NCBI GenBank assembly: GCA_963920765.1
Contig: OY987245.1
Location: 8,882,727 to 8,946,726 of the forward strand
Direction: 5' to 3'
Origin: Ulota crispa
Taxonomy: Eukaryota; Streptophyta; Bryopsida; Orthotrichales; Orthotrichaceae
DNA length: 64,000 nucleotides
Both the position numbers and the translations under genes were made by a program. Positions 2,439-35,384 of this stretch are shown piece by piece (position 1 is the first letter of the stretch; every line of letters begins with the position of its first letter). Below the pieces are notes generated by a model that searched no databases, was not told where the DNA came from, and was given only the letters and a program-made list of their open reading frames with translations.

Positions 2439-2458
2439 GTCTCTTCGGAGACATCTGA

Positions 2459-2490
<32 letters not shown>

Positions 2491-2540
2491 GGCCCCTGCG
2501 CAAGGATGACACGCACAAATCGAGAAATGGTCCAAATTTT
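2439..2540 (+). ncRNA. U6: U6 spliceosomal snRNA
   Basis: The sequence has every landmark of U6: a 5' stem-loop (GTCTCTTCGGAGAC), the GATACAGAGAAGATTAGCATGG core containing the ACAGAGA box, CCCCTGCGCAAGGATGACACG with the AGC/U4-pairing region, and the 3' TGGTCCAAATTTT end followed by a T-run terminator. The length of about 102 nt is normal. The 5' loop differs slightly from the common GTCCCTTCGGGGAC form but with compensatory changes that keep the stem. Promoter elements at 2374-2414 fit Pol III. A degenerate inverted copy lies at 8975-9074. Confidence 0.95.
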
Positions 2541-2542
2541 TT

Positions 2543-8562: not shown

Positions 8563-9601
8563 GCTATGGTAGGTGACGGAGTTTCTGAGTCCTAACGCCT
8601 AGCGCCGTTACTGGTTTCCTTGCCCCAACCCTCTAGTTGAACCGTAGGTTTTCTACAAGGTATTGAGTCTATTGTAAAGTTTTGTGGCTTTCGGTGCTCA
8701 AATGAATGAAATCTTACAGAACTCTTTTGTGTATGATGTTTTTGAACAAGGCAATGTTAGTACAGTAGTCAAGTGCACTTGTACTACAAGTAATCGAACC
8801 TCGCAGCGTAACAAAATTCCGGAGTTTAAATCCAATTGAGCATAATGTGATGGTTGAACTACAGCTTTCGACAAATCTTAGTGAAAAATATGAGCAAAAG
8901 AAAAAGGAGTGTCGTGGTGAAGCTGCAATAGCTGAGAGTAAGAGGAGAGAAAAAAAGTAAACCAGAGGAGAAAAAAGTTATACCAGTGCTCGATTAGAGC
9001 GGGTCATCCTTGTGCAGGGGCCATACTAGTCTTCTCTGTATAGTTCCAGTTTTATTGGATATCTCCAAAGAGACGAGAGGGAAGGAGGTTTATATGCTAT
9101 ATATATGTCATTGACCCCGTCGACAAACGATATGAGTTATTTATCTATTCAAGACTTTTACTTTTTTATTGTTGGAGGTTAAAGAGTGTTAGTATTGGTA
9201 AGGGATATCTCTTTCGAGAAATCTTAGAGAGTGGTTCGTAGTTCGTGCCTCTTTGACGTGTCTCTTGTTTTTGAACATTGGTACTAAGATTTGAGTAAAT
9301 GTAGTTGAAATTTACTCAAATGAATTTTCTACGCTAATGTAGAGGCAATGATTTTAAATTTGTGTTTGAGTTTATTTGTTTATTTTTTAAGAAGGTTAGC
9401 AGAGGTTTAAAATCGATTTTTTTTGTAATCCTTGTTGTTTTCCTTTGCTGAATTTCCCCTCAAGGATTTTTCACTCACCATGTCTTTCTAACTTTTACCT
9501 TCATCATGAAGTAATCACACCCAAACTTAACAATTAGAAAATTCGTCTCCCAGACGATTACAGGTAACACTAAAAAGGGAAATATAATTTGCACATCTTA
9601 A
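8563..9601. repeat. Inverted segmental duplication, arm 2
   Basis: This is the reverse-complement counterpart of arm 1 (233-3241). It carries a decayed U6 with its promoter. It lacks the MITE at 256-650. It ends at the TTAA where the 9602-10565 element inserted, and the arm 1 counterpart (about 233-236) also has TTAA there. Confidence 0.8.
8975..9074 (-). pseudogene. U6 snRNA pseudogene (inverted copy)
   Basis: The reverse complement reads as U6 with scattered substitutions, including GGAACTATACAGAGAAGACT in the core and a changed 3' end (CACTGGTATAACTTTTT). The ACAGAGA box survives, but changes in the 5' stem and the U4-pairing region argue against function. TATA-like and USE-like motifs remain upstream (about 9090-9135). 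Confidence 0.85.
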
Positions 9602-16972: not shown

Positions 16973-16990
16973 TTAAGAGTGTTATATTTA

Positions 16991-17120
16991 GGGAAAATTT
17001 CATGGATACCCCTGCAGTTGCAATAATTTCACATGTATCCTTCCTTTTTCAAAAGTTTCACAAATACCCCTGGACCTAAAAAATTCAAGGGTTTTTTTAT
17101 TGTGCATGCCATTTCCCTTC
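16991..17120 (+). repeat. Left terminal inverted repeat of giant MULE
   Basis: This ~130-bp terminus matches the reverse complement of 35245-35375. Both contain CAATAATTTCACATGTA, TCACAAATACCCCTGGACC and a T-run before TTGTG.ATGCCA.TTCCC. Subterminal GAGCTTGTGAGC motifs occur inside both ends. Confidence 0.85.
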
Positions 17121-17985
17121 AACGATGCTAGCACGCAAGCCTCAAGCAGTGAGCTTGTGAGCCTTGAGCGTGAAGTCCATGAGCTTGGAGCCTAATAACA
17201 GAGAATTATAGGACAAATTTCTTTTTTTCTTGCTTGTACTGATAGAGTTTGCAAAATTTTGAAGAAATAAATGTTAAGGATCAAATGAGGGACGTATTAC
17301 CACGGATTGAAGCCTACACCCATGACCTGGTTTTAGTATTTTATTTCTGCAAATGGTTTGTACGGGGGTTTTAGGGTCTAGGAGATGATGTGATAAAAAG
17401 TTGACAAACCTTCCACAAACGTGAAAAAACAATTGGAAATCACAGCATTTCAAGAACTTGATAGAGATTAGGGTTAGAAAATTTGAAATACATCTTCATT
17501 AAATAGACGGGGTTTGGTAATGCTCAACCATTGCTCAAACAAAATTATCCAAAGCTAATTCAAAGCGTTTCCTTCCTAAGGATGTGTAGCAAAAAGGAAG
17601 TACATAAAGGAGAAGTTTGGCATGGGGGAAAGGTTTGGCACCTTCTTGAGGAATTTGTACGACGGTGATATGAACTAGGGGTTGAATGAAAAGGGTTTAG
17701 GGTTTAAACCCAGAAATGCATGATACACGGGTTCAGAGAAATGTCCAATGCAAGAGCAACCTTGTGAAGAACATATCAAGGAACGTTTCACTGTGCACCA
17801 AGTTATCCAGTATAAAAAGAGTAGTGGTAAAAGATAATTTGTATTATAATCAATCACTTGCAGAAAGAGTAAAAAGGGATTTGCATGCAACATTAACTGT
17901 GCACAAATGAGATTTGCATTAACCAAAAACATGGCCACCTCAATAGGTAAAACATACGTACTAGTCCATAAATCGAAGGTGACAT
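17121..17985. other. Subterminal region of the giant MULE
   Basis: No coding signal is recognised between the left TIR and the 3' end of the transposase remnant. It contains GAGCTTGTGAGCC-type short repeats near 17145-17195. Confidence 0.4.
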
Positions 17986-20900
17986 CTATTCCTTCACCTT
18001 GATTACCATAGCTTTAATTAGTAGGGTCTTCACCTCATTGTAGTTGAAGCTAGGGGCATGAATGAACTTGTCCTTGAGCAGGTCCATCTTGTAGAAGTAA
18101 CAAAAAAGGTAATATAGATGCTTGCAATTTACGTACTGCGAGCGACCACCAATAGCAGAAGCAGCCATGTTTGTAAAATTTGGGCAATTGCACGTGGGGA
18201 AATTCCCAATAGTAATTTGGTAGACATTCTTGAGGTCTTCGGTACCTGATTGAAGTGAAACTATTGCTCCTAACCTTGGAAACGGAAGTAAAGTAATGCC
18301 CAGATCCTTCCCCTTGACGTTAGCTACACTCTTCCACTTATTTTGGTGCTCCGGTGTAGGGACATTATTTAAATGTCAAATTGAGCAATTGTTTCTTCTG
18401 GTTGGAAATGAGTCTGGACTGGGTGGCGCTACCTCATTATATAGAGTACATACAAAGTCACCTTTTGGGTGGAAAAGCTGGCATGGAGGTAGTATAGGTT
18501 TTTCCTCCAATTGAAATCCGGCATGTTGCAGTAGAATCGATTCTTCTTGGGTCAATTTTGTACCACCCAAGACAGGCCATATTTCAGGAACCTCTGGCCA
18601 ATCAATAACCCATTTCCGTTTTGAGCCTTTGACACAACGTTCAATGTCGTCTAGACAGAACCAAAAATCTTTCATGACTTCATGACGTGAACCATATTGC
18701 TCCATTCGTCCACAATAAGTCGGGGCAGGAGTGCCCTTTGAACCTTTGGCTATTTTAGCTGTACATTTGAAGTTGGTATTGCGTTGCTGAGCATGACACT
18801 TAGAATGAGACTTGTGACTAATTCTTGCAATATGCCACTTAGACGTGTCACAATCGCTTTCGAGAGGTGCAGTAATATAATCATGGCAGTTTATCTCAGG
18901 TAATGAACTTTGCCCACCATGAACATCTGCATCAGGTAAAGTTGACCTTGTCTTTACACAGGGCTGTGAGTAATTAACCTTGTCCGGACAGTGAGAATCA
19001 CCTTCATCATTAATTAGAATATTTGCTTTTCCCTTGCAGCTTCCAAATACTTCTTCCCTCTCTAGATGGGGAATGCAGGTTCCAAGATTTGCTGCTCCTA
19101 ACAATGTGTTCAAGGCCTCTGCCAAATTCTTCGGGTCACCGCTTCTCCTTGTAGCTTGTAGTTTCAATTCGCATTTATTAGGGCCTTTGCTCAAGGATTG
19201 GCCTTCAAGGTAAGCCCTGTAATTGATCATTTGCATCCATGCTCAAATACTGTCATCATTGGTGACATCAAAAAGATTGTTCCCATGGTTACTTGACATT
19301 TGAAGCCATTTATTGTGGATTGTCTTTGATAAGTTGCAGAGATGAATATCAGCTAATTCCTCTAACGTCATTTTCTGCATAAGACATAATTGAGTTAAAT
19401 GAATAATACTCACAAAACAACTAACACAGAAAACAAAACAACATTGGCTGTCACCACAACTCCAAGACCCAACCTTAGGCAAGCAAATAAGTACATATCA
19501 AGAAGTGACCGATTGCAGAAACACGGTTTCAAAAAGCAATTGTTCATTTCAAGGTTTCGACATTTTCCATCAACTAACAATTTCCCTTATGAAACTATCA
19601 ACAATATTCACAAAAATGGTGGAGCTTGAAATACACTCTTGGAAAAGTGGTATTTCCGAGGTCCATGGATTCGTCTTGATTTCAGAGTCAAATGAGCAGA
19701 GGGTCACCTAAATCCACCCCTTTAACCAAAAAATTGGTCCTACAATAGTATAGCAATAAACACGTCTTCCTACTTCCATCCCGACTTAACTCTTGAAATT
19801 TGAATAAAATCTCATACATGCGGAAGCACTGTAATCATTCTTTGATGACAATAGTCATTGGGGTCCTCAAAACCAAATAGAAAACTAGTCCATAGTATGT
19901 AACACAGACCATTTTATAAATCCGCAGGAAATAACAAAAATTAAGCAATTCGTGGAACACAAAGCTATGAATTAGTTTAATTCATCATTATGTGGACGAC
20001 ATTTCATATTCCAAAGGAACCTCATACATGATCGTTATTATTTAGGTACAAGTACAAACAGCAACACCAAATTTGTGATATTGAACTATTGACAATGAGC
20101 AAGAAATTACAATTTGCAAGGTGTCCAAGGCATGAAAAACAAAGCGAGGACAGCACGTACCATATGCATAAAGCTGCCCCACTGGCTATAGCAAAAGTGC
20201 CAAAATGCCAACCAATGATTGAGATGACATAGGGAATTTTCAGTTGCTGCACCTAAAGACAACCACCACGATTGTATGACAAGGTAACGTGTTTCCGCAA
20301 TCTCCATTGTCTTAGAATCTTTATACTCTTTGCATTGTTGTATATGTTGTTGTTGCAATGCCTCCTTGAGGTACTTTTGAGTGTGTTTAATCAATGAAGT
20401 GTTCTAGTGAAGGAGACAGGTCCTCTCTTGATCTTTCATGGGAACAGCTGAATTACCGGACCCAAACACAATTCGAACAACCTTCCAATTGGCCATAGCA
20501 AAGTCTGCCATGAATCCCTTGAAGTTAGGACTACCCACATTGTGACGAGCCAGAACAGCAATCATGGATCTCTAGAATTGGACCTGAATTTCTATATCCT
20601 CAGATTGCATGTCACATGTAGCAATAGTCATAACTTTCTTGTAGGTCACATCATACATGTGACAGTCCATAGTTGTCCACTCAACTTGCTTCACATGGTC
20701 AAACATCATCCATGAATGTTGTAAATCTCCTCCAATTTGCATTCTTCTAACTAAATCAACCCCACTTCCTAGTCCAGTTGTCAACATTTTGAAGAGGTAC
20801 ACTTTTTCCTTCCCTTGGCCAGGGAATATGTTGTTGTGGATGAACTTAAACAACAACAACTACTACATAAGCATGATGTTGTCAATAACCCCTCCTTGGT

Positions 20901-22481
20901 TATTAGAGCACAATGTCAATATTCTGTTGCATATATTAGGGCTACTTAGATGCTGGAATTAGTCCATGATCTTGTTCATCTCCGTGATATCTAACATAGT
21001 CTTCTCCTTGTTGTCGCAATGGTACAAACGACTTGACATAAACTGTTTTCCTGCTGCCAAAGTAATGGCAAAAGTCGTTGCCTTTGGAGTCTTCCCTACT
21101 TTGATTGCAATGAGGTCATGTATCACTTTAGCCGAATCCTTGTACATCCCTTTAGTGATGGGATGATTATGATTTCCTAAATGGATGGCAGCTCTAGTCA
21201 TCCTCATGTCATTACCATAAATATAATAAATTCAAGCATCACATTAGCTCAGACAATGTGGTAGTGTTTTATAGACTTTACATAATATGGTTGAGTCTTT
21301 GGGAGGGACATCTCCAACAACAAAGGCAAAAGTTGTGCACCCGGACCACTGTGTTTCATTCTTATATCCCGCTTCATTTATATAGTCATAGGCTGGATTA
21401 CAGCATGCCAGATGACCAACATAGACCGCCTTGCAGAATTTCAGATCATTCACATTGTGAATATTTGAAGTCATTAGCTTACACCATAGGTGATTGTCAT
21501 AGAGCTTATCCATGCCATCCAGATTACGTGCAGCAAAAGCAAACGCGCCAAAACAACACGGAGGTAGTTCAAGTATTACATTACCATTGTATGACTGTGG
21601 CAGATAACTAACGCAGTAATTTTTAATAGTAGAATAATCCAGCAAGGACAATTCATTCCTTGACCGCTGCAAAACCAATAACTTCTTTAGGCAGTCTAAA
21701 ATACTCACATGCTCACCTGAATTTGGATGCTGAGGAGGGCGAGAGGCTTCTAACCTACTGTTGTTCATCGAAAACGTCATCCGCTCAGGGGTTCCACTAG
21801 TAGAAGTCCACTTCAAGTTTGAGGAAGGGGTGACGCTATCTTGAATGACAAGGTTAGAAGACTCTTCATTGGATTCACTGAAGAGTTCTAGGACGGGTAC
21901 CAAATTCTCTACTTTCACTGCTTTAAGAGGATGTCTCGAGAATTTCCTGCATTCCATTTGGACGTCAGCTATTAGGGACGGCGCAAATGGTGTAAACGGC
22001 ATGTCAATACTGGACCCATTGGAATTCCGACTAGGCTTTTGAGCCGCTAATGTAGCAGTAACCAAAGGAAGACGTATACTCTAAAACTACCAGCATACAA
22101 GATCCATATGTCACCAGTGTCCGTCAAATGTTTCATCAATGGTAAACACTGAAGCAGTTTGCCAGAAGAAGATTTTTTCTCTTCTTCTACATAAATAGAT
22201 GTTTCTACAAATCAAAAGCGCACATGAAGAAGATGATTTGACACTGTTGCTTTACCGTGACCATTGAGCGGAAGAATTAATGGAATTTCATAATCTTCAG
22301 TACAAAAGAAAGCCATGTGATAAAATTCAGGAGTTGTGCCGGCAGAACTAAGTCCACGCCAAGAGAGTTCAAAGAGGACTGAATACGTAAGAACAAACCA
22401 TGAGAGAAATGATTCAAACTGGACAACAACTACATAACTTTCTAATGACATGACTGAACTATACCAAGGATAGCAAGACAT
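17986..22481 (-). pseudogene. Decayed MULE transposase with SWIM zinc finger
   Basis: The minus strand holds a collinear series of broken frames. 21244-22065 has the N-terminal part, ending FCKAVYVGHLACCNPAYDYI. 20959-21207 has MTRAAIHLGNHNHPITKG. 20572-20859 has WTTMDCHMYDVTYKKVMTIA, the region expected around the first DDE aspartate, then DMQSED. About 20022-20570 has GFMADFAMANWKVVRIVFG, fitting the second aspartate, then YLVIQSWWLS. 18376-19482 has a Cys/Trp-rich block with DIERCVKGSKRKW and VPEIWPV. About 17986-18260 has a SWIM finger, CNC...NCKHLYY. The frame is broken by at least two TAG codons replacing expected Trp (20572-20574, 20404-20406) and by frameshifts. A possible first exon lies at 22212-22481. 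It resembles, from memory, multicopy uncharacterised moss proteins. DDE residues are assigned by pattern only. Confidence 0.75.
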
Positions 22482-25400
22482 ATTGCAGACTTTTCAAACT
22501 TAGTTGCAAGTGAGGTTCCTCTGTCAGTAGGAAACCATTAAAGGAACTCATGATATTACATGCGGAGCTGCATAGCCACTGGCATTGAATATAATCAAAT
22601 ATTTTATATTTGACAGTACATCAAATCCAGGCTAAAACTGCTTCATAAAAGATGCAGGTACTAGTTGTACAGAATAACTGGAATGTATCAGGGTAACTCA
22701 ATATGCCATGGAGGACATGGTTCACCAAATGAGAATGGACAAATGAGAAATTACAGTTACTTCTTAGGAACATTGAGTTTAAGAATCACATGTGTTTAAT
22801 ACAAACACATTGGGCAATGATATGCGACAATTCAGTAAATCAAAAACATTTCAATGACGTCCCTACACGTATGGAGTGACAAATATCGTAGGATTTCTTG
22901 ACAATCAGAACTACGTCTTAACAGGACAACCGTTGCAATTTTAGATTCTTTAAATAAACTAAACACTTACTGGGAATCAGGTTGGATTTTAATTTTTTGT
23001 GATTTAGAGGTAGGAAGCAATGAAAAACCTGATATGGGGATTTCATTACATTTTGGTATTGTATCCTGGATTTATAAATTATATTATTTGGTCTAAAATC
23101 TACGATAGCTGGGAATTGACCGTTTCAAAGAATTGCTATTTTGAATTCTTAGTGGACTATGTAGATTTTGAATTGGTAAAGAATTTAAAACCAACCTTTA
23201 TAGGAGACTGAGAATGACCCTGATGGTCTCATTTGAGATTTAAGTATCAGTGTCAAATACTGGGATTGGCTAGGGAGCTTCTGCAGTTCACGATGATGGC
23301 AAGTTAGTACCGTGTCACATACTGTTGATTGCAATTCATAGATCACTTTACTGAATTGGACAATGTCAGTGATATGTGAAAGAGGAGATTGAGAAGTATG
23401 AAGAGACAAACGCAAGAGTTATCGAAGATTCTTGAGAAGTGCTACAGCGCTCAGAACACTTTGTCTATTGGAGGTACTTACACTGTTAGTGAGGGCGGGA
23501 TTGAAGGTGTGAGGTTGGACGTCACTGCAACATCAAATACTAGGAATTGCCCACATCCTAATCCCGGTGTTTTGCAATCAGCAAAACAGGTCTCTACAAC
23601 TTCTTACTACACATATGTTTTGCATTCATTGTTTCAAGCAATCACCCCTAAACAACATAGAGTTAGACATTTAATTAAGATTTGGAGTATTTAGTAACAA
23701 ACCAAACAATTCTTTGGTAGAGAAAGCTGTCCATCTAATAGCAAGGCATTACAAAATGAAAAATCTTGAGTATTATGGATCTTTGCTAATTTATTTAAAA
23801 TATATAGAAGTTGTTGCTTCCATTGGTCTTGTTAATCCTAATAAGCACGGACTATAGATGTTAGAAAGAAAAGACTAAAAGGTTACTTGTTCAAGAGAAT
23901 ATATTAGTGGGGGTTAACAACATGAAGAAATTGCAAATAGAGAAAAATAACGCTGCAAGTGATTAATTTGCTTACTTTAGTGACTGATATGCTCCAAAAC
24001 TATGAGGGCGCAAAGCTTTTATACTTGTGAACACGTTCATTGGGTGAGACCTCCATTAGTTTGGCTGATCTATTTTTGGATCATTTGTGTAATGAGCTTT
24101 AAATCAAAGTAACACGGAGGGAACGGAGCGTTGACTAGAAAAGTCAGTGTAGTGAAAGTCGAACCTCTTGTCAACCTAAATTGTTGGCCTCCAGTGCGAG
24201 TTCTAAAAAAATATGCCGCGATGCCGACTCTGCCTCTACTGTGGCCCGGTTTACATGGTTCCCTTGCTCATTTCAGGAAACTGATGCAGCCGATACTACT
24301 GCTTAGCACGATCAATTTAGAGGTTGTGTATACAAAAATTGGTGAGAACGCGTAGGATTAGTTATTTCAAACCTTTGCGTGATGTTGGACAAATGAACAG
24401 TCAAATTATTTTATGAGGATGGATGCATCCACTACTTTCTGGCATCACTGTTTTCATATTTTGGTTGTTGGGATATTAGGACAAAGTTTGAATGTTGTAG
24501 TTGTAATACTTGATGCTTTTTACTTACAGTTTAGCCTCAGAAAATTCACTTACATTTTAATGGCAGAAACCCTACTCTCTCGAATTTTGTAACGGTGTAT
24601 GTTTTATCTGTTTAGAGTTTTCAGACGACGTTCCAAAATAGAAATATTTCCAAATTTGCGTGTTGCAGCTGATACTTGCAATTGACTTATATTCTGCAGG
24701 TGATCTGCTGTAATTTGACAATGTCTCAATAACAGCACCTACGTAGCAAAGAAAACATGGAGTTCGAGTCTTCCGATGATCGCTTGACTTACGGCAAATA
24801 GAAACCGGTGTCAGATTGAGAGGAGCGCGCCTTGGAAACACACATGGTGTCTTGCTGCGATCGTGCGTTGCTGACTAAAATTGTTTTTTATCTTGATTTT
24901 CACTTTTCAAATATTCAATCTTCAGTCTTCCGTTGGCCTATCTTGTGGCTGGCTCTAGAGGTATAAAGGTCAAGGTATGGATAAGAGCCCACTAAATAAG
25001 GGACAGGTAGATCAGGACAGCAGACACGAGCTGTCGTCCGTATGACGGAATCCTAAATTCAAATTTACGATCTGCTAACCAAAATTCTAAATTGTAAGAA
25101 TAGAGCAAGTCTTGACCATGTGGATGATCAATCTCACATTGTCATAACAACAATAAATGGAGTTAAGTTTGGTTTAATTCAAACTATCCGCAACAAGGTT
25201 TACAAAACATAATGAAAATGAATTGAGAAACGAGCCTCTAAAACCGGCTACGAATAACAAAGCCACATCCAATACATATATAAAAAATAAATCCAAAATA
25301 TTTCTCTTGAAGTCTTCATATCTTCAGATCTTCAAGTCTTCATATTTTAATAAAAATAATGAGAAAAATCACAAATAATAAGTCCTAGAAAGGCTGCAAC

Positions 25401-26590
25401 TTTCTATTTAGTGCCACAGATGGCTCAAAGATCTAAATGCTAAGTGTAATAGCAATTTACAAAAAATATTTAAATTTCTAACATCTTTCTAAATTTCAAC
25501 TCAATCTAAGCTATTGTCCAAAAGTTATGTGGGTTCAAAGTAGAGGCTCTTCTTCCTTCTTGCAAACTAAGCACTGCCTTTATAAACCTCTATAACTTTT
25601 GTTTCACACATCACTCATAGAATCGTGATATCAATTTAAAAAGATAATACTACTGACTATAACTCGTAAAATTTTCATTAAAAAATAAAACTCTATTCAA
25701 AAATTCTAGTAAATCAAAATATGGGTCTCAATTTTTTAGAGAGCATCCAAATCTCCACTTCTTACACTATAACTTCTTCAATAAGACTTTAAATAAAATG
25801 ATTAAAGACAATTTGAAAAGCTATGATAAGAAACTATCACTCCTAAAATTTCGAAAAAAAAATTTCATACTATCCGAAAGTTGTAGCTCTTCAAAGTTTT
25901 GGCTTTCTCATAACAAAATAGCAACCACCTCCAATTCTTTACACCTCCATAATTTTCTCTTTTAAGCTTTAAATCTCAGGTTTAAAGACTTTCTAGAGAG
26001 CCAAGACTAAGATGGACACTTCCTCTAAATTTTGTAGCAAAATGATATACAAATCATAAGCTATGGCTTATCGAAGTCTTAGCCTTTCTTCATAATTTGG
26101 CATTTTGACTCTAAAATTCAAATACTCATAACTATTGCATCACAGTTCCAAATCAGATTTGCAAACTCATTTTGGAAAGGTAATCATACAAGGAATAATC
26201 TCTCTAAATTTCAATTTAAAATCATGCATACAAAAAAAGTTCGATTACATCAAAGTTTCAGAATTTCTTCCATCTTCTCACCAACATTCATACATTAACT
26301 TCCAACATACTAAAGAATCTTTCCTCCTTAATTTCGACTTTATTTAAGATAGGGAGGTAGGGCACATCAGCCCATGTCCCTTTCTATTCTAATCCCACTA
26401 TAGATGCCAAACCCCTTTTCCTTTCACACATTTTCCATTTACTTCTAAATTCTTAGTATTTTTTATTCAAACAAAAGCAAAATATATGAGCATTTCAAAA
26501 CATCTAGATAAACATATAAAAATGATTAAATTACAAAATAAACACCACCGTAAAGTAACTACGTGCCCTTGCGGGCATATAATAGCGTCA
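22482..26590. other. Interior of the giant MULE without recognised genes
   Basis: This stretch separates the two outward-pointing gene remnants. From 25,000 to 26,560 it is very AT-rich, with loosely repeated phrases of the type CTAAAATTTC and CAAATCTCAACT, resembling noncoding transposon filler. Short open frames (for example 23389-23694) have no recognisable domain. Confidence 0.4.
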
Positions 26591-26599
26591 AATGCTTGT

Positions 26600-26800
26600 C
26601 TTCAATCGCCAAATCGTGGATTTGGTTAATTGGAGAAGCGGTCATCTCTAGCCGTCCGCCGGTCCAGGTTCAAACCTCATCGGACTCGTCGAGCGATGAT
26701 GGTGGCCCACGACTTGGCAGCTCGTGAGGTAGGAAATTGGCCTAGCCAACCCGCTATCTACCCCCCTGAGCTGTGCATGTGACAAAATAGCGCAGTGCAT
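26600..26800 (+). mobile_element. Possible tRNA-derived SINE
   Basis: Pol III promoter-like boxes are present: an A-box-like TGGTTAATTGG (26623-26633) and a B box GGTTCAAACC (26667-26676), 44 bp apart. They are followed by a G/C-richer body (GGTGGCCCACGACTTGGCAGC) unlike the AT-rich surroundings. No poly(A) tail or target duplication was found, so the boundaries are approximate. Confidence 0.4.
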
Positions 26801-29800
26801 TGAAATCTATGGTCGCTGTGCTATTACTAAACCGTGGTCCTCATCACAACCACCCTTTTTGCCATAGTTGTTGATTTATTGAAATCAACACAAACATAAA
26901 TAAATAACGAATATCTATATGATAGAGAGATCTCCATCAAGACACCGGCAAGGAACAAGGTATGAATGAAATGAACCCCAGACATTGCGATAAAAATATT
27001 AGAATGGCTGAGGTGAACAGTGATTAAAGATTTAAAAACCAACATTTCTGCAGCAAGACTTTCTCTAATCATCATGACAAATACATAATTGGAGCTGCGA
27101 CAGAAGACTTTAAAGAGTTCACATTACACAAGTTCATGTCAATGTTTAATGTCTCATTTTCTAAGCTGGGCAGAATAAGGAGGTAATGAAAGGCAATCAC
27201 TCTCGTGTAATTTTTTGAAGTTCGTCTACCATTGCGTAGGAAAGACATAGTTTAGGTGATTTCAAGATTTGTAGATTCACCAAAAGTTCTTGAAATTTTT
27301 TATTTGTTTTGGACTATTTCTATAACCGGCGATGTGAATGTGCTCTCTACGGAAAGATCCACTGTCGGTAAAGGCAGATGGAAGGGCTCAAACGCCGCGG
27401 TGTAAAATTTGTCAAAGACACTTACGTAATAAATATTGTCTAACTGATGCATGCGAGCCCTACGAAACCCTAAACCATTATGAATCATGCTGGTCTGATC
27501 AGCTTAAAGTTTGTCGTTCTACTGGTTAGTATTTTTTGGAATGTGTTTGGTTGAGCAAAACTGACATGATTCTGAATTTCACATGAATCACCTTTGTCGG
27601 CAAAAAAGATGGGGTGAAGCATTCATAATTGTGACTGTTGCGAGCCCTTGCGATTACTTAGGTTGTTTCAGCTGTTGTAGTACATTGTTTCGTCATTGCA
27701 AGCCATATCAGCAAGCACAATAGCCTCTCTTTGAACCTTAGTATCTAGTAATGCTATTTGCTAAAATACAAGTTAAGTTAAAAATGAAATTTTTAGTGTC
27801 TTTGAATCTTTAGCAAATATTTTCCCAAACATGATCAGTTTGACACTGCCCTAACTTTGTGAATTGTTTCAGAAAAATAAGCCCATTCTACCTTTTGCTG
27901 GTCCAAGAAAGAGCGCCATTTCAGACACTCCAGAAGCTCATATCCATAGTATAGTGGATTCTTTATTAGAAAGCAGTAGTCAAGGAAGTCATGCTAGTGA
28001 TGACGACAACAAACAGTCAGCAGCTTCAAAAAATGTAAAGCGCTGATGCAGCAGCTTTTGAGAGGATTGTTAATAGTGCTTTAAACTAAAGACACTTTTT
28101 GATGCAACAGCCGATTGAGTATTTGTCGATCGTCGGCCAAAATAGCTTGGTTTTTTGAGCTTCAGACGTGGAAGCAGGTCTTGCAACTAGAGACAAGCTG
28201 AGACGATTTGGGTATACATGCTCTTTCCGATGATGGTAGCCCACAGCCAGAGATATGTGAGGAAGGTGAGAAGATGTTGTTGGCACCAGCTAATATAAAT
28301 GACGAGGAAACAATGTTGATGGAGAATGATCTACGGCGGCGTCAGAAAGTGAATACTGTTGCTGCTATTGCGGCTTTAAGGATGAAGCCAGAGTCACTAT
28401 TTTGACTGCGGGTTCCTCTCATGAAACTTGTGCCCATGTCAATTGTGAGGCTGACGTTAGCTTCTGACGTCACTATCTTGGAGCATGAGTTTATTCATGG
28501 TTATCAAGAAGGATCATTCGTGATTTACTTCAGCACAACAAATGAAGCAAGAGAGACTTCTGAGTTTACTGCAGCCGAGGTGGCGTCGTGGGAACCGCTT
28601 TAGCAAGCCAAGAATGAGAAATTCAAGGGTGTAATTGGTGGAATTAAAGAACTAAAGTTCATGTTGAATTTGAAGTTCTTTGTGTGCAACGGTAACCATC
28701 AAAGAATTGCGGGGATGAAACACATTCAGAGTCAACATCCTCAAGACCAAGCTTAGCATATATTGGTTGACTTGATTATTCTGGAGATAAAAGGACAAAA
28801 CAAAATTGTCATGCAGGTCATGCATGACATCAACAAGTAAATCAATTACACATCAAATGAGCTGTATAGTTTAAATATGTCGATGAACGGTCTCTTTCTC
28901 ATTTATTGCTGTCTAGTAGAGTCCTAACATCTTGCTGAATGACTTAATGAACAGGCAAACAAAGGGGTACCATGTGAAGACAAATTTGGTGCATACCCTC
29001 TACCGCGTTCAAAAATACGGATTGCTTCTAGTCGAGAAGTTTGTGGAGCTAGTGCACCCTGCAGAGTATAAGCGGTGTAAAATTTCTACCCTACGCAAAA
29101 CCTGGTACACTACCCCAACAGAAGTACTGACGTTGTTCATATTCTGGGTATGTAAATATGCAAATTACATTGTTTGCATTGTCTTTTGTTGAACTATGAC
29201 TAGGGGTTTAAATTGATGTGTGCATTAAAAACAAAGCGTTTTAGTGTCAAGCACATCAAGGCGCTAGAAGTATCGCAGGTTCCGTGGATGATGCCTCCAC
29301 TCCGCCATCAGTTGCTGGTGGTGGAGGATGCTATTCGCTGTCATTCACAGCACCTGCCATCTGCTGTGAGGAGGTTGCATTTGATTAAAACCCCATTACA
29401 AGATGTTTAGAGTGTCAGTTAAAGCCATAGACAATACAAGGGACTCAAGTTCTGCTCATTTGACCCCTACTTTAAAGAACCATTTGCGATCAATTGTTAG
29501 AAAGAAATAATCAGGTACTCTAGATGACACGGCCAACGGCAGTAGCCAAACCCCCCTCGGTGGCGAAGGCATCTTTGCTTAAACCCTGACCCATGCTGAA
29601 TCATAAGTAGTGCACACTTCCAAAGTCGTGCTCATAGGTTTTTGAGGAAATGAAATAAAATGCCTAAGGGCGAAATCCAAACTGTAAAGCTTCAATACTC
29701 AACCCAGCCTACCCTTTGCACCCTTGATCGTTAGAGGAAAGGTTAGAGATGCACGTTCATGAAACTGAGTGGATTGCGTGATTCGAGAGGGGGCAGCCAG

Positions 29801-30010
29801 ATCGTAGTTCATTGCACAAATACTATGATTACTGCCCGCATCCACCTCACCATTGCTTGGTCCACGTTGTTGAGTCAGCGTGTCATTGCAAATTATGAAG
29901 AAAGTTGATTGCAAGTCGCATTGATACTGCTAAGGCATTGCAAATGAATGCCCTGAACAAGTGCAAAAGTAACCAATGACATCCGCATAACAGTGCTCTT
30001 GTGGCAAGTG

Positions 30011-30066
30011 TGAGGGCACCATGACAAGTGCCCTTGCCGGCAAGGGCACTCGCCATGGTGCCCTCA
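30011..30066. repeat. 56-bp near-perfect palindrome, no spacer
   Basis: Two 28-nt arms meet at GCC|GGC and pair at 26 of 28 positions (left arm starts TGAGGGCACCATG). It lies in an intron-sized gap of the decayed methyltransferase gene and shares CCCTTGCC and GAGGGCACCAT phrases with the TIR element at 30429-30752. Confidence 0.8.
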
Positions 30067-30428
30067 CCAATGCCTTCTGCACGATCTTGAAATAGACCAA
30101 AGATGGTATTGTTCAATGTTCCAAAAGCAGAAATGCTCATTCCAAACAAAGACATCTGTAAATTTGTTTTGGCGTGCTCACGGCTTTGGACATGGCCCTA
30201 TTATCTAAACCGGTAGGTGTGTTCTATTTAGAGGGGGCTATCAAGGTGGATTCATCTATTACGCCATTGTCTTAAGCTTGTTTGTTTGAATGCTTCATAC
30301 CGTTAAATTCTGTTACTTCAGAACCAAGTTGGTAAGATCTGAAAGAGCGCAAGCGGGGTTGGTGGTCCTCTTGACAGCCTTAGCAAATTATAAAATGAGG
30401 GAGTCAATAATGTTAGTCTGAGGATACT

Positions 30429-30752
30429 GCAGATGGTGGCTCTCGGGGCATGGACGCGGGCACGTTGTCAAACACCCTTGCCGACAAGGATGCATGCGGG
30501 GAATCCACTCTTGCGTAACCTCCTCTTGGTGCTATCGTGCTGTTCATGACATCCGGGACTACCCGCATTTTTTGGCAGTTCCCGCAGTCCACTCGCTAGC
30601 AATGACATTGACGAAGGTCCTCACAACCCTGAGAATAAAATACAATATCAATAAATGTTTCAATTCACTAAAGCCATACGTCAAGCCTATGGCGCGGATG
30701 AGGGCACCATTGACAACGTGCCTGCGTCCATGCCCTGAGGGCCACCATCTGC
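30429..30752. mobile_element. 324-bp element with 43-bp inverted repeats
   Basis: The ends (30429-30471 and 30710-30752) are inverted copies with 40 of 43 matches, starting GCAGATGGTGGC and ending GGCACGTTGTCAA. No obvious target duplication was seen. It is nested inside the giant MULE, within the decayed methyltransferase gene. Confidence 0.7.
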
Positions 30753-33700
30753 GCCGCGTTCCATTGACCATGATTAATTTTGCAATTTCTCTTATATCGG
30801 ATTTCTTTCTTGTATCGGATTTCTTTAACTCAAGCGTCGTTAGATTATAGACAACTCGTGTGGTTCCCTTTTGTAAATGGGAAATACGGATTCTGTCGGT
30901 GATGAAGGAAACACTTGAAGCTCATACTCACATGTCAAACTCGTGAGCTTGTTTGAGCTCTTCTGGGTCTTTTGTTACAACTGTTGTACCGCTTGGGTCG
31001 GGGGGATTCATGCTTCATTTTTGGATCTTGCATGGGCTCTTTGGAATGGTGTTCTAGTCTCATCTGCCAAGCTTGCCATTCTATATTGTCATCTCTTCCC
31101 GGCGGTGCTGGTCCGTGTAGAAATTTTGTTGGTATTCTTTGGCTGCTTGTAATGAGTTCATGAATGCCATATGAGATCTATGGAATTATGTGATTCATAT
31201 GTTCCAACAGCAAGAATTATCCGCTGCATCGGACCTCGCTCTCCAAAAATACATTGAGACAACTCATGTGGAAGATCGGACGGATGTTGGTAGTGCACAT
31301 GCTATGCATGAGGGTTCAAAAGAAAAGCACAAAAATCTTTCTCAGAAGATGACAAAACTATTGGCTGCAGCTAACCCAGCAAACAGTCTAGAATTTTTGG
31401 AGGAGGTGATTTTCACATCACTAGAGTTCAAAATCTGTTTTTGTAAGGTTGTTCTTTAATTGTGGCTCTAATCCTATATTTTTTCTTTGAAGGTGGAGAA
31501 GCATTATAGTTGCAACAATGTGCCGGAGATGACATTGGACAAGCTTCAAATTGTTGCTACTTGCAATACCTCAGCCGTTCACAGAACAAAATTTTTGAAG
31601 TGGTGGAATTTGTCAATCTCATCTTGTGAATCCAGACGATTTCCGCCAAAACTTGTGGTTGACGACCCACTTAAATTTTTCTTGAACAAATGCATATGGT
31701 ATGCTAGCGTAAGTATACTCAACTTCACCTGAAGAACTTTTACATTTTGTTGGCATTGCTTTGTGGTAATCATTGGTGGATTGGTGCCCAATTCTATCAC
31801 ACTAATTTTTAAGGACGTGGGACTTCTGTCAACAGATTGAAGATGCTGTTGTTGAGTACTTTGACAATGTTATTAAAAAGGATAGTCTAGAAGTGAACAT
31901 GAATGTACCTCTTGAACCGAAGACTCTTCCAGAGTATATAGAGGGTTGACGTCAAAAGATCTGGGATCAGGGATTTAATGGATATCTGAAAGGGGCCGGG
32001 AATTTCAAAAGGGGGATTTTTTTCAGTGCATTTGATGGGTCAAAGCAAGCTGTGCGGTGGGTTCTCTTTTGGTAAGGCTGTCTATGATGAAGGTTTCCAT
32101 TTTTATGTTGATCTTATTTCAGTGCCGGCCATTCTAATTCTGTTAATGTGTTCGCCATTTCATTGTTTTGTTTGAGTTGCAATGGCAATGACAACTTACT
32201 AGTTCATGTCCTTTGTTTTGAATGCAAATTGCCAATCCTTTATTGATAAAATAGTTAGCCCAATTGTAATCATCATCTTTGAAGTCCTCCATGCTTGTCT
32301 GTAAGTTTTAAATGAGGTATTTCTATCTTATTCAATCGCCCAAAGTATTTGCCAACATAAAATATTATTGTTACACTGGTCTTTGAGAACCCGAGGTTGT
32401 GTACCAGAATTTAATCCTAGTGTTTATGGTAACTGCTTGGAGCGTTTTACTTAGTAGAATTTGAATTGATGCTATGGAACCCTAAAGTCTTGAACTTTAA
32501 CGGTTTCCACTATCCATTGTAATTTTGCCTGTCTAATACGTGCTTGTGGAGTTTGTTTGATTATTTCTCTGTGAGCTACTACGTCCATTATCCAAATCCT
32601 CACATTAATATCTTTGCTCTCTGTACATTCTTTTTTTCAAGTATTTCAAGCATGAACTATTAGCAAAGAGGGCAATCTCTCTGGAGCAACTTCCTCCATT
32701 TCTATCTACTTGGCTAGATTCCAGCTCGTTGGACAGCATGTGCACTCCTACTCAGCTACAAAACTACACCAGCGCCCAACTTGCTAATGGTGGATGGTAA
32801 TTGGACTGTAGCTTAGAGTTCACTCATCCATCTGAAGCTTCTTTGTGCAAATCTTTGAAGGGATCATGTGAAATATCTACAAGGAAAAGATTTTGCTGAC
32901 ATGGACAAAGAAGCACAAGCTAAGGCAACTGCTAGAAGGGTCCAAGGTGACAAAAGAGATCTGCAGAGAAGGACTTTAGAGGGAAACGCAAAGGTAAAGG
33001 ACAGCAGGTTCTTGACATTGCTAAAAGTTCTCTAGTGTTTGCTCCAGCACCTAGCCCGATGCCGCGGGGAGCAAAACCAAAGTCAGTGGTCCATGACTTG
33101 AGCAACGAGGATGAGGCCATTATCCAAAGCACAGATATTATTTCCTTGGCCGAGGACAACATTATTCAAATTGAGGAAGCGATCTTGAAATTGTCAATCA
33201 ATACTATTGTGGAAGAGATGGAGAATGAAGCCCCAAACTCTTATACAACGGTGAAGAATTTCTTGAAGAAGGTCGTCTTTCATCCACCTTATTTGTTAAT
33301 GTTCTAAATTTTTTTTTCATTCAAATTTCTTTGTTTGTTTGTTTGTTTTTTTTTTATTCAAGTTCAAAAATATGCATTATGATAATATCTTCCTTGTCAC
33401 GCTAATTTTGCAAGTTGCTGGTGGAAAGGATCAAATGTACATGGGGAAGCGTACTAAAGATGTTGTTGTGGATTTGGTCATAGTGGATTGCCCAAAGAAC
33501 CTCCCGGTCCCTGGTATTTCTGTGACAGCAACAGATGTTCTTGCATGGAACAAAGACGAGAAATACAAATTGCTCAATGCAACTTTTGCCTTTTCAGAGA
33601 AGGAATTGCACAACAATGGTGCTCTTGTTGTTGTTCACTCATTCTGCACAGACTCTAGAGATAGCATAGTGGGACTTTGCGAAACCTATGGCATAGTGAT

Positions 33701-34219
33701 AAAGAAGGTTTGGAATGGAATTAACAGGTTGCATACTACCTCCACGATTGATCCTACAACCACGATGAGACTTTGTCATGTGTAATTCTCCAACTACGCT
33801 CAAAATGATTCAATTTTTTTTTCTTACTCCCTTCTATTGTTGCGTGATTTCACAGACACAAAAGTTTGAGGTCACCTTACTAGTAAAAGATTTTGGCAAG
33901 GATGAGAAGTCTAAGTTTCTGTTTTGCATTTCACCAACTATGGAGAAGATTGACTTAGAGGTTGGAAAGGACGACTGTTTACTCAACCTCGTAGGAAGGG
34001 ACAATATTTCAATGAATGGGACCAAACCTTGGAAGGGACCACGGCAGAAGGGTCTGAGGTTTTTCCAATACCTAATTGAAGCAGCCACTACTGCAGGCAA
34101 TGTCGTTGTGGACTACACGGTTGCAGTTGGTTAGTTTTGTCTTGTTCTTCTCCCCAGTCCCATTTGAATTTTTCTACAGTAGCTCCATTTATTCACTAAA
34201 ACACCCGTAATTTCAATTA

Positions 34220-34310
34220 GGTTTGGCTGTCACTACTTGTCTTTGTAATAGCACCATTTACTTACTGAAACACCTGCGATCTCAATCAGGTTCGGCTATC
34301 ACTATCTGTC
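34220..34310 (+). repeat. Duplicated intron/exon junction in the methyltransferase-like gene
   Basis: About 70 bp containing a splice acceptor and the following codons occurs twice in tandem: ...TCAATTAG then GTTTGGCTGTCACTAC near 34217, and ...TCAATCAG then GTTCGGCTATCACTAT near 34290. Only the second copy continues into the GSAITICRG reading frame. Confidence 0.7.
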
Positions 34311-34484
34311 GCGGAATTGGTCGTCACATTCTTGCATTAAAGGTTGATGGTGACATCTACGCTGTTGTTTTGAAACTTATGATTCAATCCGTCCCAGCAC
34401 CAGAGCGCAAGGCGGTAGCACCAGTTCAGCTACTCAAGACCCGGATGCTATTGCAATTATACCGAGGAAGTTCGTGCGTAAAAT

Positions 34485-35244
34485 GAAGCAAAGTAAGTAA
34501 ATTTTCCCTTCTCCTTTTTTTTTTTGCTTTCTATATTGCGAGGTTCCCTTACCTTATTCACTGTTTCTTGTTTTGCAGTTGTTCGCGGATGAAAAAGAGG
34601 AGAGAATCCTCTCTTGCTGTAAGTGCGGACATCTAGGTCAGCCCGGACAAGTGCTATTTCATGCTGTCTTATGCAATGGATTTGGCCAACGCTTATGTTG
34701 TTTCTGGTTCCACCATGCCAGCCACTCGTGTCCCTCGTTACTTTCGCGGTGTTTTCCAATATCTGGATGTTGCAGCTACTATTGGGGAAGAAAGTGTTGG
34801 GGCACCTAGTTCTACCGACTCGTCCAAAGAAACTACTATGTCCTAGAATCTCCACTCTTTTGGGGATTTTTTATGGTTGCCTTTTATGTAATGGAATCCT
34901 ATTATTCTTATATTGTTCATACTGCATTGAGCTTAGCATCCTTTGCAACACGCTCTTTTGCTTACCGCTAATTACATGATTGATGATTGTCTTTTCAGTA
35001 GTTGTATGTCAAGATTGTATTTTCTTTATAACCCTGTTTATTTAACTCCAAACTCTAAACCATTTCTCTTTTATAGTATGAGCTTATGCAATCACGGTTA
35101 TAGGTGCCCAAGTTTTTGGTATGAGGGTTTATTGCTCACATGCTCACAAGCTCCCGCTCACACGCTCACCTCCTAGCAACCTTGCATTTCCCTTCAACCT
35201 TTGTGTGCACGTTACTTTCTTAGTATGCGTGCGCACAAAGGAAG
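34485..35244 (+). other. 3' flank of the passenger gene inside the giant MULE
   Basis: A further exon-like piece may start after TTGCAG at 34579, but the three frames disagree on its product, and no domain is recognisable. Subterminal short repeats (GCTCACATGCTCACAAGCTC, about 35130-35170) precede the right TIR. Confidence 0.4.
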
Positions 35245-35375
35245 AAGGGAAGTGGCATACACAATATAAAAAAATCTTGAATTTTTTTGGTCCAGGGGTA
35301 TTTGTGATTTTTCTGAAAAAACAGGAGTACATGTGAAATTATTGCAAACTTCAAGGGTATCCATGAAGTTTTCCC
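35245..35375 (-). repeat. Right terminal inverted repeat of giant MULE
   Basis: Counterpart of 16991-17120. It ends TATCCATGAAGTTTTCCC directly before the target duplication TTATATTTA. Confidence 0.85.
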
Positions 35376-35384
35376 TTATATTTA

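Follow-up and report, generated by a model that had tools for sequence, protein, structure and literature searches.

A giant two-gene DNA transposon nested in a miniature inverted-repeat element of Ulota crispa, and its putative pseudo-methyltransferase gene

The window, a 64,000-nucleotide stretch of the Ulota crispa genome (contig OY987245.1, positions 8,882,727 to 8,946,726 of the forward strand; C4:8882727-8946726 in our contig labels), contains a giant DNA transposon with two gene regions, a leftward transposase-like gene and a rightward methyltransferase-like gene. An initial annotation had described a Mutator-like element (MULE) with inverted ends of ~130 bp, the 9-bp sequence TTATATTTA immediately outside both ends, and two outward-facing genes between them. 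Each of these features was found: the arms at positions 16991-17120 and about 35246-35375 are inverted and 86% alike, their inversion was also detected as two inverted pairs (80 nt at 85% and 30 nt at 90%), TTATATTTA lies directly outside them at 16982-16990 and 35376-35384, and two oppositely oriented multi-exon genes point outward between them. However, the arms are not the ends of the giant unit. The true unit is an 18,065-bp DNA transposon at 17120-35184 (plus strand), flanked by 10-bp duplications of CATTTCCCTT, and the arms and TTATATTTA are the terminal inverted repeats (TIRs) and target duplication of a single, interrupted miniature inverted-repeat transposable element (MITE) of ~310 bp. 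The species' own genome (275 Mb, 157 contigs) was searched with the parts of this locus; because the best candidates were scored, the counts given below for the arm, the left end, the methyltransferase-like gene, the transposase, and a conserved block at 28-29 kb are lower bounds.

The 130-bp arm had at least 68 matches in the genome (best 40 of 1748 candidates scored). By manual count within this set, 56 of the 68 rows formed 28 tight inverted pairs, each spanning less than ~320 bp; of the remainder, 2 rows were the window's own arms and 10 were unpaired. The 28 short inverted pairs indicate that the arm is the end of an abundant MITE. Among seven intact members compared, 284-317 bp in length, exact 9-bp flanking repeats were present in five, with one mismatch in another and two in the last; they thus have the short length, paired TIRs, and 9-bp target duplication of MULE-type MITEs. 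The left half of the interrupted copy (16991-17119, plus strand) matched the MITE from base 1 to base 127-134 with 84-88% identity to all seven intact members, and the right half (35185-35375, plus strand, including the 10-bp duplication) matched from base 119-125 through the end with 77-86% identity to six of them; against the seventh (L034), the right half aligned only from its own base 17. The two halves overlapped by exactly 10 bp in six of the seven comparisons, and the overlapping 10 bp is CATTTCCCTT, which occurs at 17110-17119 and again at 35185-35194, the left and right target duplications of the giant element. Since the two halves rebuild one MITE with a 10-bp overlap, the segment 17120-35184 was inserted into an older MITE of ~310 bp. 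The copies of TTATATTTA at 16982-16990 and 35376-35384 are thus the left and right target duplications of the MITE, in line with the flanking repeats of its intact relatives, and not of the giant element.

Comparison with paralogs gave the same boundaries. In 20-kb segments around copies on C3, C9, and C2 (for C9, the right part alone), the C3 and C2 copies were collinear with most of the element and the C9 copy with its right part, with about 67-87% identity in the long pieces. No paralog alignment ran into the MITE arms at either end for C3 and C2 or at the right end for C9. The unit's own ends recur throughout the genome: the left-end search gave at least 41 matches (best 40 of 109 candidates scored), 38 of which begin exactly at base 17120, and the right-end search gave 31 rows from 29 candidates, 23 of which begin exactly at base 35184. 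The left end (17120-17180, plus strand) reads CAACGATGCTAGCACGC and the right end (35130-35184, minus strand), read inward, CAAGGTTGCTAGGAGG, both with subterminal GTGAGC repeats; as written on the forward strand, the termini are CAACGATGCTAG.../...CTAGCAACCTTG. CAA...CTAG ends with inverted subterminal GTGAGC-type repeats were present in the window, C3, and C2 copies and at the right end of the C9 copy. The element therefore has terminal inverted repeats, as do MULEs, though short and imperfect ones. Target duplications were seen in three copies. That of the window copy is 10 bp long and that of the C2 copy 9 bp (GTTTTGATA); the C3 copy has TAAAAAGTT/TAAAAAATT, identical at 8 of 9 positions. 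All fall within the 8-11 bp of Mutator-like elements. That the 130-bp arms could be the giant element's own TIRs, with TTATATTTA as its target duplication, is suggested by the exact 9-bp repeat and the 86% inverted arms flanking the unit. Against this, paralogs match the interior and stop before the arms (the one exception being an isolated TIR-like stretch some 0.9 kb beyond the C2 copy), the arms rebuild one MITE of intact size, and the unit has recurrent ends of its own. This interpretation of the ends retains almost no credibility; the split-MITE alignment rules the arms out as the true ends.

The leftward gene (17989-22080, minus strand) is a transposase-like remnant of several exons, with homologous pieces 56-63% identical in a distant copy. 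The initial annotation had described it as the remnant of a SWIM-finger MULE transposase. The gene is decayed and has a C-terminal CxC...CxH (SWIM-like) pattern within 17989-18375; this CNC...CKH pattern scored 12.6 bits (E of 0.1) against Pfam SWIM, below the 19.6-bit cut-off. The catalytic-domain block (20110-20859) contains two in-frame stops. The gene probably encoded a DDE transposase of the IS256/Mutator type, which would cut at the CAA...CTAG ends and make the 9-10-bp duplications; its likeness to such enzymes is in predicted fold only. Several results weigh against this assignment: none of 17 transposase homologs matched Pfam MULE; no sequence relative of the transposase was found in the PDB; the fold model was weak, with a mean predicted local distance difference test score (pLDDT) of 65 and a predicted template modeling score (pTM) of 0.45; a Foldseek search with this model gave no match at an E value of ≤0.001; and the best predicted-fold matches, to ISCth4, had middling scores, with template modeling scores (TM-scores) of only 0.22-0.24. 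With no Pfam or PDB relative, a weak model, and low TM-scores, the Mutator assignment is not proven.

The rightward gene was traced by homology through its 3' part (31788-34837, plus strand), which includes exon A (33414-33764), exon B (33859-34131), and exon C (34286-34477), all on the plus strand and together matching profiles of class-beta DNA methyltransferases. In agreement with the initial annotation of this gene as methyltransferase-like, exons A-C (33414-34477) gave a PDB match to DpnA (2e-5) in which motifs IV and I are collinear. Within a 15-row alignment of the domain, up to 11 rows matched PHROG DNA methyltransferase families (window's own row, 8.3e-7), 9 matched the CcrM profile (best, 2.5e-5), and 8 matched Pfam N6_N4_Mtase at an E value of ≤1 (best, 0.0098; the window's row scored 12.1 bits, below the 26.7-bit cut-off). 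Exons A-C thus combine methyltransferase profile matches with the order motif IV before motif I that marks class-beta enzymes. An intron of ~100 bp separates exons A and B at one position in 18 loci; its donor is GT in 16 of them and AT in the window and one other locus. Upstream lies a decayed, conserved coding block (28175-29081, plus strand) that belongs either to the rightward gene or to a third one, with a CNGNHQRIA motif and 44-51% amino acid identity to a distant copy; it occurs at no fewer than 127 merged loci. The initial annotation's term "partition-like" for the second gene was not supported: the only hint of a ParB identity in the 28.2- to 29.1-kb block was a GNHR-type motif, the block had no match in Pfam, PHROGs, or the PDB, and a search of the genome for ParB_N (PF02195) gave 0 matches. 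In addition, the exons that were scanned, among them a part of those of the rightward gene, contained no Pfam match to the VANC-type domains DUF1985 and DUF287.

In active enzymes, motif IV reads DPPY, DPPF, or DPPW; in DpnA it reads DPPYN. This catalytic motif (DPP[YFW]) was present in none of 25 rows read, of which the 15 aligned rows are a subset: DC[PQSL][KE]N was found in 22, DYP[KE]N in 2, and a stop in 1. A second clade lacked it in all four rows, which read DIPEN, DVPKG, DVPKK, and NMPEN. In addition, the glycine-rich motif I departs from that of DpnA. The "DNA modification" part of the earlier description is doubtful, since not one of the 29 copies read has an intact motif IV. An active enzyme, which would mark the DNA of its own element with N4-methylcytosine (4mC) or N6-methyladenine (6mA), as bacterial enzymes do, would account for the profile matches to DpnA, to CcrM, and to phage DNA methyltransferases, but given the state of motifs IV and I we regard it as unlikely. 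Ratios of nonsynonymous to synonymous substitution rates (dN/dS) were computed for the methyltransferase-like exons in all 300 pairs of the 25 loci. Among the 260 distant pairs, the 51 with a dS of <3 had a median dN/dS of 0.19 (0.13-0.33), and the 40 close pairs ranged from about 0.14 to 0.72. The low ratios in distant pairs show that the source genes were subject to selection, while single copies decay; the domain has been kept under purifying selection despite its degenerate motif IV. The window copy is itself decayed: its transposase and its 28-29 kb block contain in-frame stops, and one splice donor is mutated.

The two genes recur together. For the methyltransferase-like gene, the 150 listed of 172 rows merged into at least 99 loci; the 150 transposase rows, all of them used, merged into at least 127, and the 142 rows of the 28-29 kb block, also used in full, likewise into at least 127. 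A transposase lay within 25 kb of 49 of the 99 methyltransferase-like loci, and 47 of these 49 pairs had the window's arrangement, with the transposase upstream and on the opposite strand; in 500 circular shifts used as a control, the mean was 2.4 and the maximum 9. Of the 127 loci of the 28-29 kb block, 88 had an oppositely oriented transposase no more than 20 kb upstream, 52 had methyltransferase-like exons downstream on the same strand, and 44 had both partners (shift means of 0.86 for the transposase and 0.58 for the methyltransferase-like exons; maxima of 13 and 9). Complete copies were identified by pairing 40 of the 41 left-end rows with 29 of the 31 right-end rows, overlapping second pieces having been dropped. 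Nine left/right pairs lay within 45 kb, and six of them, at six sites, held all three blocks in the same order, with end-to-end lengths of 14.5, 14.5, 16.5, 16.8, 18.1, and 40.4 kb. One block or none was present in the remaining three pairs, which span 7.7, 10.3, and 34.0 kb. Furthermore, a methyltransferase-like gene lay less than 3 kb inside the right end on the expected strand at 11 of 29 places, and a CCTAG[CT]AACC end followed exon A by ~1.3-1.4 kb in 14 of the 25 gene loci read. In a divergent copy on C1, the methyltransferase-like exon was about 50% identical and the transposase, upstream on the opposite strand, 56-63% identical.

These data establish a giant, recurrent two-gene family with a fixed divergent order and not random gene capture, as the initial annotation had proposed: 47 of the 99 loci have the window's arrangement, and the six end-to-end copies share one order. 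Two alternatives bear on this point. Two unrelated transposon families, adjacent or nested and contributing one gene each, would be in keeping with the further 2.14-kb insert within the unit and with the three of nine end pairs that hold one block or none; the six copies at six sites in which a single left and a single right end enclose both genes, and the 47 of 49 pairs in one arrangement, make such a coincidence barely conceivable. Pack-MULE-like capture, in which a host gene was picked up by chance and has no role in the element, has a precedent, since capture is described as common in Mutator-like elements in the available text of PMC6431247, and half of the methyltransferase-like loci had no detected transposase partner. 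Even so, it is improbable: subfamilies that share only about 50% protein identity have the same divergent gene order, the intron has kept its position and the gene its selection, and the four PF01555 matches in the genome at an E value of ≤1 were all below the cut-off in an exon-by-exon search of limited sensitivity, with no canonical host source seen.

Other observations run counter to the two-gene family as described. No transposase match lay within 25 kb of 50 of the 99 methyltransferase-like loci. Around the 40 left ends, a transposase was present within 8 kb in only 8 cases; the 28-29 kb block was present in 7 and methyltransferase-like exons in 15, within 25 kb. Close full-length copies showed no period-3 substitution pattern save in two overlapping 300-bp windows (28320-28719), and their substitutions indicate mostly neutral decay. 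Possible reasons for the unpaired methyltransferase-like loci are candidate limits, truncation, and derivatives that lack the transposase, and shortened derivatives of the giant element are likely to exist.

Some individual copies differ in structure. The 40-kb copy at C9:16116033-16156383 has been enlarged by further insertions and retains both ends and all three blocks. Left-end matches such as those at C4:17887344, C3:22509093, and C1:27695768 resemble the left end of the giant element over roughly its first 74 bp only, and they lie some 4-6 kb from methyltransferase-like matches that span only query residues 117-217; they possibly represent a shorter, related element family without transposase. 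Within the window copy, the 2.14-kb nested insertion (24807-26947), absent from the C3 and C9 paralogs, is a small transposon with CGGTGTC.../...GACACCG ends.

Taken together, the best explanation, to which we assign a probability of roughly 80%, is a giant two-gene transposon nested in a MITE and carrying a putative pseudo-methyltransferase accessory factor. The 18,065-bp transposon inserted into a ~310-bp MITE that was already in place, with duplication of 10 bp of MITE sequence, an event that leaves the TIRs and 9-bp duplication of the MITE outside the giant element. It belongs to a large, old plant family whose copies carry, between the two ends, a leftward transposase followed by the rightward conserved block and the rightward methyltransferase-like exons. 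The leftward DDE transposase of the IS256/Mutator type would act at the element ends, and the rightward gene would encode an accessory protein on a class-beta DNA amino-methyltransferase fold with motif IV mostly D[C/I/V]P[K/E]. Methylation by this protein would have been lost and the fold re-used for DNA binding, perhaps at the GTGAGC arrays near the ends, where binding would aid transposition or counter silencing, as VANC does in VANDAL elements with an unrelated protein. The accessory protein is most likely a noncatalytic DNA-binding factor, perhaps end-binding or anti-silencing. A more specific proposal, offered tentatively and at less than even odds, is that the family is a hitherto undescribed, long-lived branch of giant plant DNA transposons with a transposon-owned pseudo-methyltransferase, in which a bacterial-type N4/N6 enzyme has become a sequence-specific binder of GTGAGC arrays that reads or blocks DNA methylation there, as an anti-silencing system independent of VANC.

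Two further observations concern other genes. Matches to U6 small nuclear RNA lie in the window at 2439-2541 (plus strand, 113 bits) and 8972-9074 (minus strand, 84 bits), in opposite orientation and 6.4 kb apart. The chlorophyll a/b-binding family has 56 matches in the genome, eight of which, with equal or nearly equal scores, fall within 0.4 Mb at C4:21391382-21771811, apparently a recent gene cluster.

To our knowledge, there are few descriptions of DNA transposons that far exceed 10 kb and carry conserved nontransposase genes, and we know of no element, and found none among the literature entries listed, in which a Mutator-like transposase is combined with an N4/N6-type methyltransferase domain. 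The locus illustrates that an exact target duplication and long TIRs can mislead where one transposon sits within another. That an accessory gene derived from a methyltransferase is under selection points to a role in transposition or in escape from silencing, and the 99 or more and 127 or more merged loci in one genome provide material for testing co-evolution of the protein and the end repeats.

Long TIRs are usual for MULEs. Like plant MULEs and the IS256 superfamily, the giant element has 9-10-bp target duplications, inverted ends, and a CxC..CxH transposase-like protein, whose predicted fold is closest, with middling scores, to ISCth4; unlike MULEs, it has short ends with subterminal repeats, no Pfam MULE match, and a methyltransferase-like second gene. 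With the class-beta N4/N6 DNA amino-methyltransferases DpnA, CcrM, and MboIIA, the second protein shares the motif order IV then I and profile matches, but every one of the 29 copies read has a degenerate motif IV, and its intron-bearing gene resides in a plant transposon. Dinoflagellate and charophyte retrotransposons carry DNA methyltransferase (DNMT) genes, according to the available part of PMC5890265, and likewise are eukaryotic transposable elements that have acquired a DNA methyltransferase gene; theirs are C5-cytosine enzymes, whereas the present domain is of the amino-methyltransferase type and lies in a DNA transposon. In a bdelloid rotifer, N4-methylcytosine serves as a host epigenetic mark, as set out in the accessible text of PMC8885841; both cases involve a bacterial-type DNA amino-methylation lineage adopted by a eukaryote, here as a transposon gene with a degenerate motif IV. 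The red alga Chondrus crispus has enlarged En/Spm (CACTA) families of 16-20 kb with 4-5 open reading frames, in the account available from PMC6431247, and these too are giant eukaryotic DNA transposons with extra conserved genes; superfamily and host differ. Finally, the VANDAL elements of Arabidopsis (VANA, VANB, VANC) are likewise multigene elements with a transposase and accessory proteins. VANC binds dense arrays of short motifs and causes methylation loss and, as far as the available text of PMC5735166 describes it, differs in having DUF1985 and DUF287 and in the motif YAGTATTAY, compared with GTGAGC in the giant element of Ulota crispa.

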